DNA from: Paraphaeosphaeria minitans
Lineage: Eukaryota > Ascomycota > Dothideomycetes > Pleosporales > Didymosphaeriaceae
Assembly (NCBI GenBank): GCA_015832175.1
Contig: WJXW01000006.1
Location: 930,001 to 994,000, forward strand
Reading direction: 5' to 3'
Length of the DNA: 64,000 nt
The stretch's first letter is position 1, and the number at the start of each line of letters is the position of its first letter. The translations under genes and the position numbers were made by a program. Of the stretch, positions 31,199 through 35,492 are shown piece after piece. Under the pieces are notes generated by a model, which saw only the letters and a list, made by a program, of their open reading frames with translations, ran no database searches and was not told where the DNA came from.

Positions 31199-32350
31199 TC
31201 AAAGTACTGCAAACGCGCTGGCATACGAGACGCTGCTGTCCTTGACGCTCACCACCTCACTGCTCCTCTCATACCGTAAGAACTTGAATTTGCCATCGCC
31301 CGGTAGTCCACTGGCCTGTTCCACTGCAGCCATGAAAACACCAATTGGATGCCGTCCGCAAACCGTGTTCCCAGTCTCCTTCAGCTGCTCTAGGAATTGC
31401 CTGTGCTCGCCGCTCTCGACTGCGTCTATGCTCTCGAAGTCGACGGCCTTGATGCTCTCGTGAATCGGATAGTATTTCTTGACCTCTGAGGAGGATCGGA
31501 TCTCCCTGGCGCTACCGTCAGGAAGCTGGTAGTACGTGTACCGAAAGCGTGAGCCCCAATGGCAGAAGTCTGAGGAGATGATGAAGAGGTTTGTTGGGTC
31601 CGCGAGATAGGGGGCGAGCTTGGAGCCGAGATCGCGTTCGGTGGCTGAGTTGGTAGCGCCGACGAGAATAGGGACCAGAGGTACTGATGAGCTATTCGAT
31701 TTGAAAGCTGAGTTGTGTCTGTAGGATCGTATGAGTATTCGGGCACAAATGAGAGGACTGGAAATGCGTACAATGACAACATCTTGTAGATGTACGGCAG
31801 GTGCATCTCTAAGCTGTGCTCGTCTTCGTCCTGCTGCCTGGACATTGTCTTCAAATTCCACCCCTTTCGGATAGTCTCTACGAGCTGTGTATCGACGGTG
31901 AGATTTCCGAGAGGTGTGCCATATTCACTGCATCCTGTAGTTGCGGCACCCGGCAAACCCCAGTGATGGGAGGGTCCGAGCAGAAAGACGCGTTTGCTGC
32001 CAGAGTGAGCTTTCGAGTATGTTGTAGAGGAGTCGAATCATACGCGTTCGCCCAGTCGGCGCTTTTGTAGGCCCATGCAGCAGCAGGCCCTGAGTACGAG
32101 TATCCAGCGTGCCTGCACGTCATGAGCCTTGCATTATCAGTAACGGCCGGCAATTAGCCTACGGTGCGATAATGGCTCTGGCTTTCTGCACCGGTATCGA
32201 GACGTCGCCTTGCTTTGAAGACCTCGATCCTATGGGAGTTGTCGAGCTTGGTACTTCCGACAACCAGCCGTCGAGTTGTTGTGAGAGAGTTGCGCCATCG
32301 TCAGTGTACCACGACCCTGCATGTGAAGGCTCACGTATAGCTGGAGCCAT
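31199..32350 (-). CDS. MHO1: MEMO1/MHO1 family protein
   Basis: Four exons (32350-32163, 32112-32044, 31996-31772, 31718-31199) give 333 residues, a normal length for the family. Seen: [10 protein letters not shown] at the N-terminus, [24 protein letters not shown], the EHSLEMHLP motif, and [16 protein letters not shown], which together carry the conserved His, Asp and Cys residues that form the MEMO metal site; [14 protein letters not shown] lies near the end. Family knowledge: MEMO proteins resemble extradiol dioxygenases; in yeast MHO1 is linked to filamentous growth, and human MEMO1 to cell motility and copper-dependent redox. The splice joins are all GT-AG and in frame. Upstream lies a run of AGGTAGGT motifs (32451-32492) in the presumed promoter. 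Confidence 0.94.
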
Positions 32351-34716: not shown

Positions 34717-35280
34717 TTTGGGCGGAGGTAATTCTGGGTGAGAGCGGACGCGCAATTGCTGCACCAAGTAGCAAAGTGGTTATGCAATGACTGTGGACGC
34801 GGAAAGAGAGGTGGTGGGAAGAGAGAGAACCGGCAAGTGGAACAGCTTCCGAGCTAACGGAGCTTGACCGGGACTATGTCATGGAGGAGGCCGTGCGCCG
34901 TTCTATATGCCAGGCTCTATTTGGATCGTGGACATCAAGATCGATGGAATATCAATCAATCAACTTGCATGTACAGTGTCTTGATAAATCCTTTGTGATT
35001 CTGATGATTGATCTCTGGTTTCCCGGCGATCGCTCTCAGAATGATGCGCTCCATTGCCGCTCCCCTACGCCAAGGGTTCCAATGCCCCACTTTATCGCCA
35101 CACCGTCCCTACTACTTACTGGCTCGCTTCTTCTTGCCCCGCTAGCTCATACTCCACTATTATCTGCCCCACAAAACGGCACTCGTTCTGTCCTTGCTCA
35201 GGTCAGTTGTGCGGCGCCTTCTGTTTTTATGCTGGTATATATATGCATTATGGAAAGAAATCGTCACCGATTTAGCATCA
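34717..35280. other. Intergenic region upstream of tRNA-Val
   Basis: Promoter of the mitochondrial hypothetical gene and 5' flank of the tRNA. A plus-strand open frame at 34881-35336 has no domain character and runs into the tRNA, so it was not called. A TATATATA element at about 35238-35244 lies roughly 40 nt upstream of the tRNA 5' end. Confidence 0.4.
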
Positions 35281-35287
35281 GCGACTG

Positions 35288-35298
35288 TAGTCTAGGTG
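35288..35298 (+). promoter_or_regulatory. Pol III internal box A candidate
   Basis: TAGTCTAGGTG fits the consensus TRGYNNARNNG. Its last three bases come from the inserted sequence, so the interrupted gene still reads as a box A; the restored tRNA reads TAGTCTAGCGG at the same place. Confidence 0.6.
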
Positions 35299-35347
35299 AG
35301 TTGTCTTCAACTGACGTTTTCAAATTTGTTTCCTAACATCCATTCAG
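35296..35347 (+). other. 52-nt GT-AG insertion in the tRNA D-loop
   Basis: Begins GTGAGT, has CTAAC 14 nt before the 3' end, and ends TTCAG. Length, donor, branch-like element and acceptor match the spliceosomal introns of protein genes in the same window (46-64 nt). It contains a hairpin AGTTG/CAACT (35299-35312) and a T4 run (35317-35320). Its exact ends could shift by one base (AG duplicated at the borders) without changing the restored tRNA. Confidence 0.75.
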
Positions 35348-35369
35348 CGGTTATGATGTCTGCTTTACA

Positions 35370-35381
35370 TGCAATGTGGAG
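35370..35381 (+). other. 12-nt anticodon-loop tRNA intron
   Basis: Lies between positions 37 and 38, the canonical site cut by the tRNA splicing endonuclease. Its removal gives a seven-base anticodon loop. Confidence 0.8.
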
Positions 35382-35395
35382 CGCAGAAGGTCCCC

Positions 35396-35406
35396 GGTTC
35401 GATCCC
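35396..35406 (+). promoter_or_regulatory. Pol III internal box B
   Basis: GGTTCGATCCC matches the box B consensus GGTTCGANNCC. The distance from box A is about 98 nt, longer than in an intronless tRNA but within what intron-containing genes tolerate. Confidence 0.75.
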
Positions 35407-35418
35407 GGGCAGTCGTAC

Positions 35419-35425
35419 TTTTTTT
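35419..35425 (+). terminator. Pol III T7 terminator
   Basis: Seven T residues begin two bases after the discriminator base, as expected for a functional Pol III terminator. Confidence 0.75.
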
Positions 35426-35429
35426 CCTC

Positions 35430-35492
35430 TTTGATGTGCTTTTTTTACAAGATAGCAGCGCTGAAGGCCCAGTTCGATCGCGGGTAGCCGTA
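35430..35492 (+). pseudogene. Degenerate 3' half-copy of the tRNA-Val
   Basis: Aligns by eye to 35351-35417: TTGATG..GCTTT..ACA, then AGCGCTGAAGG, AGTTCGATC and GCGGGTAGCCGTA, with several substitutions in the T-stem and anticodon stem. No 5' half is present. Looks like a tandem partial duplication that has decayed. The copy includes the region of the 12-nt intron but not the 52-nt insertion, so it does not date the insertion. Confidence 0.65.

Follow-up and report, generated by a model that had tools for sequence, protein, structure and literature searches.

A tRNA-Val(UAC) gene interrupted in the D-loop

The window, by which we mean the whole 64,000-nt stretch of Paraphaeosphaeria minitans DNA that was analyzed (G000:C6:930001-994000), contains at 35281-35417 of the plus strand a tRNA-Val(UAC) gene with two introns, a 52-nt insertion in the D-loop and a 12-nt intron in the anticodon loop. 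The observation that drew attention to this locus, a tRNA-Val(UAC) gene carrying a GT-AG insertion in its D-loop, is confirmed. The features of the locus are as follows.

35236..35244, plus strand: TATA-like box TATATATAT, with the first tRNA-Val nucleotide 45 nt downstream
35281..35295, plus strand: exon 1, comprising the 5′ acceptor strand, positions 8-9, the 5′ side of the D stem, and A14 G15 (from the sequence and alignment to the uninterrupted paralogue L002)
35288..35298, plus strand: A-box-like TAGTCTAGGTG, spanning the exon 1/intron boundary (from the sequence compared with the consensus)
35296..35347, plus strand: spliceosomal-type GT-AG intron in the D-loop, 52 nt (from the sequence, a pattern count, and the L002 alignment)
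35296..35301, plus strand: 5′ splice site GTGAGT of this intron (from the sequence)
35333..35337, plus strand: branch-site-like CTAAC of this intron, 12 from the 3′ splice site
35345..35347, plus strand: 3′ splice site CAG, the insertion ending in TTCAG (from the sequence)
35348..35369, plus strand: exon 2a, comprising the rest of the D arm, position 26, the 5′ anticodon stem, and the loop to A37, anticodon UAC (from the sequence and ARAGORN)
35370..35381, plus strand: ordinary anticodon-loop tRNA intron (37/38) of the tRNA-splicing-endonuclease type, 12 nt (from the sequence and ARAGORN)
35382..35417, plus strand: exon 2b, comprising C38, the 3′ anticodon stem, variable loop, T arm, 3′ acceptor strand, and discriminator A (from the sequence and ARAGORN)
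35396..35406, plus strand: B box GGTTCGATCCC (from the sequence)
35419..35425, plus strand: run of seven T, a Pol III terminator, one base past the tRNA-Val end

The exons total 73 nt. When both introns are removed, ARAGORN identifies the product as Val(tac), in which the acceptor stem has 7 pairs, the anticodon and T stems 5 each, and the D stem three pairs and a U/U mismatch. An earlier, sequence-only reading of this DNA is thereby borne out in its sequence, its coordinates, its 52-nt insertion, and its complete 73-nt tRNA; its description of the arms as fully paired was slightly too strong, given the D-stem mismatch. Removal of the D-loop insertion alone leads ARAGORN to misplace the anticodon intron and to report Ser(tga), and the unspliced gene is reported as Ser(gga). 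At the gathering score, Rfam gave no match anywhere in the window, intron families included. With a loose threshold, the Val locus reached 23.5 bits (cut-off 29), the match beginning at the 3′ end of the insertion. The consensus of the A box is TRGYNNARNNG, and because the Val intron starts with GTG, the A box still fits this consensus despite the interruption, matching in unspliced and spliced form alike. The window contains, over both strands, 127,896 52-mers; two of these match a pattern with GTRHGT at the start, CTRAC near the end, and YAG at the end, and one of the two is the Val insertion. This count, together with the gapless alignment of L002 across the junction (below), upholds the judgment of the earlier reading that the split gene is not a chance match.

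Just downstream, at 35431-35492, lies a decayed, 5′-truncated second copy of the tRNA-Val 3′ half (anticodon region to acceptor end), in which the T stem is broken. A neighboring protein is 93% identical to a Paraphaeosphaeria sporulosa protein. A MEMO-family gene of the window has as its second intron a 47-nt GT-AG intron (31997-32043, minus strand). Its protein is 99% identical to a P. minitans protein over 78% of the query, and P. minitans protein P0121 reads through the stretch matching the intron (16 residues). The 93% and 99% identities point to a Paraphaeosphaeria-like fungus (Pleosporales, Didymosphaeriaceae).

Other Val-UAC genes were sought in the one assembly that was searched (47.45 Mb, 30 contigs), using two patterns. 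One spans the anticodon through the T loop and matched 32 places; the other, which tolerates up to three mismatches, covers the D arm through the anticodon and matched 15. A Val-UAC gene in which both of these stretches are interrupted would escape both searches. Together the patterns matched two Val-UAC genes, the window gene and L002 on contig C17. The D-loop of L002 is intact, and hand reading places one mismatch in its acceptor stem and one in its anticodon stem. We do not call L002 dead because its 36.8 bits against the tRNA Rfam model exceed the cut-off of 29; it may be a working gene. At the same anticodon-loop place as the window gene, L002 carries a related 9-nt intron, TGCAATACA, and 63 of 75 aligned positions are identical between L002 and the spliced window gene, with no gap across the junction. 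Several intact tRNA-Val-UAC genes elsewhere would, to the sequence-only reading, have counted toward a dead insertion; one other was found, L002. The Ala-AGC gene L082 matched the anticodon-to-T-loop pattern through its intron, and ARAGORN miscalls it as Val. An uninterrupted tRNA-Val(UAC) gene also occurs in L073 (NVWL01000032.1), a eukaryotic-looking contig in an Oceanobacter MAG of bacterial designation. The contig also has three further tRNA calls and a reading frame resembling reverse transcriptase, and its Val-UAC gene serves only as a yardstick of a normal gene.

At least ten interrupted tRNA genes in one genome

The assembly contains at least ten interrupted tRNA genes: the Val gene of the window and L102, L103, L104, L105, L106, L118, L121, L139, and L161. 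A tRNA search with Rfam, in which 62 of 1307 candidates were scored, gave 52 matches, and three of these are interrupted by GT-AG introns (initiator tRNA-Met L093, which is L106; Leu-CAG L103; and Ser-CGA L102). A survey of B boxes, which samples tRNA genes regardless of D arm and anticodon, used the patterns GGTTCGAWTCC (62 places), GGTTCGASTCC (38), and GGTTCAAWTCC (31), and all 131 places were read. These patterns miss other T loops, the initiator and Val-UAC among them, and the whole tRNA set is wider than the survey. By hand count, the 131 places comprise 34 uninterrupted tRNA genes, 6 interrupted ones, 5 set aside, and 86 that were not taken as nuclear tRNA; ARAGORN made a call at none of the 31 places of the third pattern. 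The interrupted genes in this survey are L102 and L103, together with four that were new: L139 (Ala-CGC), L118 (Leu-CAG), L121 (Asp-GUC), and L161 (Leu-AAG).

Five further loci are tRNA-like, with T arms, terminators, and apparent anticodon introns of ~75-150 nt, and were left uncounted. L130 and L160 are related to one another.

C5:1464529-1464799: L130, long-intron tRNA-like locus
C1:4584131-4584411: L160, long-intron tRNA-like locus
C2:3544807-3545087: L162, long-intron tRNA-like locus
C2:3943635-3943915: L164, long-intron tRNA-like locus
C14:416390-416660: L150, long-intron tRNA-like locus

Two other features of the assembly came to light. At G000:C3 ~2,839,800-2,853,200 (L011, L014, L015, and L101), an AT-rich, mitochondrial-looking tRNA cluster lies inside a large contig, and would be either mitochondrial DNA inserted in the nuclear genome or an assembly join. 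A dispersed repeat, TTACAACTCTGCTCCTRAATATCCTRTRATAGTTCGAGCC, has many copies among the matches listed for the pattern TTACAN{14,44}GTTCRANNC; most differences between these copies are at G/A positions, the pattern expected from repeat-induced point mutation.

For eight of the ten interrupted genes, removal of the one GT-AG intron in silico yields the expected isotype by ARAGORN. Spliced Ser-CGA L102 is returned as undetermined (cg) and is CGA by hand reading, and the Val gene gives its expected isotype only once the anticodon intron is also removed. An ordinary anticodon intron is present as well in six of the ten genes by hand reading. When the unspliced genes were submitted to ARAGORN with intron search, 6-7 of the 10 received no call and two a wrong one; the only correct call was L106, whose intron sits in the anticodon loop. 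Because about eight of ten unspliced genes are thus missed or misread, a genome of this type may seem to lack some of its tRNAs, among them the initiator.

Intron signals and positions

Each of the ten insertions is 49-53 nt long and runs from GT to AG, and in 10/10 genes GT and AG fall at a register that keeps the exon product. For L106, GT-AG is the only boundary among shifts of -4 to +4 that does so. Compared with GTRNGT, the 5′ splice sites have GT in 10/10, R at position 3 in 10/10, G at position 5 in 10/10, and T at position 6 in 9/10. CTAAC occurs within the last 20 nt of eight of the ten introns, and a branch-like motif lies 10-12 from the 3′ splice site in nine. The exceptions are Leu-AAG L161, where branch-like motifs stand at 35 and 21 and none at the usual 10-12, and Leu-CAG L118, with CTGAT instead of CTAAC and a 3′ end of CAAG. 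These signal counts are not wholly independent, because splice signals helped to recognize L118, L121, L139, and L161. In length, the tRNA introns match the three introns (50, 47, and 53 nt) of one protein-coding gene of the window, a very small yardstick.

Group I and group II introns have a large catalytic core and are commonly hundreds of nucleotides long. Self-splicing introns of either group were considered and rejected, since insertions of 49-53 nt are too short and are without an Rfam intron family; none was among the matches at E <= 1 in 11 loci covering all ten genes.

The ten insertions fall at nine places in the tRNA, two of these places being one base apart. Sites are given in our own tRNA numbering.

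3/4: Ser L102
10/11: Leu L103
15/16: Val, window gene
23/24: Leu L161
24/25: Leu L118
25/26: Ala L139
38/39: initiator L106
46/47: initiators L104 and L105
52/53: Asp L121

Empty sites, promoters, and terminators

The exon structure and intron signals described above, the empty sites, and the layout of promoters and terminators can all be read directly from the DNA. For the empty-site test, the spliced exons were aligned to genes of the same genome that lack the insertion in question. The following alignments are gapless across the junction (identical/aligned positions).

Leu-AAG L161 and L096: 96/98
Leu-CAG L118 and L094: 91/96
Asp L121 and L138: 85/87
Ala-CGC L139 and L115: 84/87
Ser L102 and L098: 80/93
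Leu L103 and L094: 68/81

Leu L103 is gapless against L094-L096 but not against L118 and L161, which are themselves interrupted nearby, and the alignment of Ser L102 to L099 is not gapless. The initiator loci, with two intron positions between them, act as one another's empty sites.

A TATA-like box at -60 to -28 is present in 10/10 interrupted genes, 27/47 uninterrupted genes, and 68/3000 random window positions. A run of four or more T within 42 nt downstream follows 10/10 interrupted genes, 46/47 uninterrupted genes, and 313/3000 random window positions. In the interrupted genes both elements are positioned as they are around uninterrupted ones.

The initiator tRNA-Met genes

A DNA query of the assembly located three initiator tRNA-Met loci, all of them interrupted. 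L106 carries a 53-nt intron after gene nucleotide 37 (38/39 in tRNA numbering), and L104 and L105 carry 52-nt introns after nucleotide 45 (46/47). Spliced in silico, the three yield one identical 72-nt sequence, and ARAGORN calls each Met(cat). In the assembly, the anticodon-arm core GGGCTCATAACCC matched L104 and L105 alone. Neither this core pattern (2 places) nor the DNA query (3 places) revealed an intact initiator tRNA-Met gene in the assembly.

The exons of L104 and L105 are identical at 72/72 positions. Their intron interiors, taken as the 28 nt from the 5′ splice site to the last 18 nt, agree at 13/28, and their 100-nt flanks match at 28 and 30 of 100 positions, ungapped. Drift has thus spared the exons, the two splice sites, the branch site, and the intron length and altered the rest, as is expected of used introns. 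A cell cannot do without an initiator tRNA. As our searches returned no intact gene for it, these introns are most simply taken to be removed, and splicing by the spliceosome would seem obligatory for initiator tRNA-Met, every copy found being interrupted. The initiator is the only case that argues for necessity, because the Asp, Ala-CGC, and Leu-AAG genes have intact relatives able to substitute for them.

Viral contigs were also scanned. The Val core gave 0 matches, a neighboring protein gave none that was confirmed, and the initiator split after nucleotide 45 gave 0 matches; the initiator split after nucleotide 37 gave 7, none with adjoining tRNA sequence.

Proposed spliceosomal maturation of tRNA and alternative explanations

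The Val insertion is very probably an ordinary U2-type spliceosomal intron in a working nuclear tRNA gene, one of at least ten such genes whose tRNAs the spliceosome would mature. We favor the spliceosome over the tRNA endonuclease because of the GT-AG ends, the 5′ and branch motifs, the mRNA-intron-like sizes, and the lack of any full bulge-helix-bulge. We infer transcription, spliceosomal removal, and the order of steps from the DNA. Pol III would transcribe the gene from the TATA box and internal boxes. From pre-tRNA that is nascent or nuclear, the spliceosome would then excise the GT-AG intron through a branching step and ligation of the exons, and the joined exons would fold into the cloverleaf and have their ends trimmed. 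Where there is a short anticodon intron, it would be taken out in a step of its own by the tRNA splicing endonuclease and ligase. The sequence-only reading had suggested that spliceosomal introns spread into tRNA genes and that a tRNA is processed by the spliceosome. Both suggestions are supported at the level of DNA: nine more genes carry insertions that agree in size and signals but lie elsewhere in the tRNA, and all three initiator genes found are interrupted, with no intact copy found.

The same reading had also considered a pseudogene that caught an intron, and this idea extends to the whole set: dead insertions, in which the interrupted genes are pseudogenes that acquired introns, or DNA carrying introns, and the cell relies on intact tRNA genes. 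It would fit the intact relatives of the Asp, Ala-CGC, and Leu-AAG genes and the uninterrupted Val-UAC gene L002 with its score above the Rfam cut-off, and tRNA decay does occur here, as the 5′-truncated 3′-half copy just downstream of the window gene attests. However, our search found no intact initiator tRNA-Met gene, and the exons of the three initiator genes are identical despite drifted introns and flanks. Moreover, the joined exons of all ten genes still form a tRNA (by ARAGORN, and by hand for Ser-CGA), and 5′ splice-site signals are kept in 10/10. With nine more interrupted genes and an initiator for which no intact copy was found, the pseudogene is not favored, and we regard dead insertions as very unlikely. 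Cleavage of non-canonical tRNA introns by the tRNA splicing endonuclease at a bulge-helix-bulge, as in Cyanidioschyzon merolae and archaea, has a precedent in the ectopic introns of C. merolae, which include the D-loop (PMC3978253), and six of the same ten genes contain ordinary anticodon introns by hand reading. Yet when every product-keeping register was examined for a 4-bp central helix and two 3-bp flanking helices, a test of simple pairing only, the full motif was present in 0/10 genes. Ala L139 (central 4, flanks 1 and 0) and Asp L121 (central 3, flanks 3 and 2) came nearest. The endonuclease would also leave the GT-AG ends, GTRNGY, and CTAAC unexplained, and the sites are spread over the acceptor, D, variable, and T regions; we consider this route extremely improbable.

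It is likewise highly unlikely that the insertions are introner-like or transposable elements, one family that inserts into tRNA genes and is then spliced out, a proposal that bears on their origin and not on their removal. Introner-like elements are known in Dothideomycetes (PMC4457414), and 5′ starts such as GTAAGTTCAATCAA are common to iMet L104 and Leu L103. Against this, the near copies of the 52 nt that the sequence-only reading had associated with such an element are missing from the genome at E <= 0.001 for the Val intron, and the ten intron interiors show no clear likeness to each other (for the 45 pairs, mean z 0.47 and best 2.6), the other nine introns having been compared only among the ten. 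Old, diverged introners are possible.

Returning to spliceosomal maturation, we think it likely that the spliceosome is an obligatory tRNA-maturation machine in this fungal lineage. Introns would have entered tRNA genes repeatedly, at no fewer than nine positions. The initiator could be made only once the spliceosome had acted on a Pol III transcript, so all cytoplasmic translation would depend on this step, and two unrelated splicing systems would act in succession on some pre-tRNAs. If true, this fungus makes its initiator tRNA through the spliceosome, and a splicing defect would strike translation initiation directly. It would also make experimentally accessible the question of how short, uncapped Pol III transcripts with a high degree of structure acquire introns.

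Relation to known systems

Eukaryotic tRNA genes are described as limited to one intron in a 2021 methods paper (PMC8450103), and tRNA splicing is described as spliceosome-independent in a second source (PMC13149111). No report of spliceosomal introns in tRNA genes was recognized by title or abstract opening in a literature search, outside of which lay most subscription papers and all bioRxiv preprints. As far as we have seen, the host, number, positions, and apparent initiator dependence of these introns may be new; the kind of intron itself is known. Koehrer and colleagues, in 1990, reportedly engineered a yeast tRNA precursor with a pre-mRNA intron that was spliced by the spliceosomal route; this was an artificial construct and would show feasibility. 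The 12-nt intron at 35370-35381 is of the same kind as the canonical eukaryotic tRNA intron.

The ectopic tRNA introns of C. merolae are removed through bulge-helix-bulge motifs, and many of those in the Guillardia theta nucleomorph form no defined motif (PMC3978253). As in both of these systems, the tRNA genes described here are interrupted away from 37/38, the D-loop included. Unlike those of C. merolae, they have no full bulge-helix-bulge in 10/10 genes and have spliceosomal signals instead. Spliceosomal introns also occur in ascomycete rRNA genes (PMC11889510, citing Cubero 2000 and Bhattacharya 2000), which likewise are mRNA-type introns within a structured non-coding RNA of Ascomycota. 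rRNA is transcribed by Pol I and is much longer than tRNA; the shortest exon of the tRNA genes described here contributes 3 nt to the mature molecule.

In fungal U6 snRNA and U3 snoRNA genes, GT-AG introns with branch sites are found in some paralogues only, and their positions cluster in one part of the RNA. According to the 2017 paper that describes them, no small structured RNAs other than U3 and U6 were known to be frequently interrupted by an intron (PMC5832005). Like those genes, the present ones have spliceosomal-type introns inside small structured non-coding RNAs and leave some paralogues uninterrupted. In contrast to U6 and U3, the hosts here are tRNA genes of several isotypes, the introns occupy nine positions, and six of the ten genes contain an ordinary tRNA intron as well.
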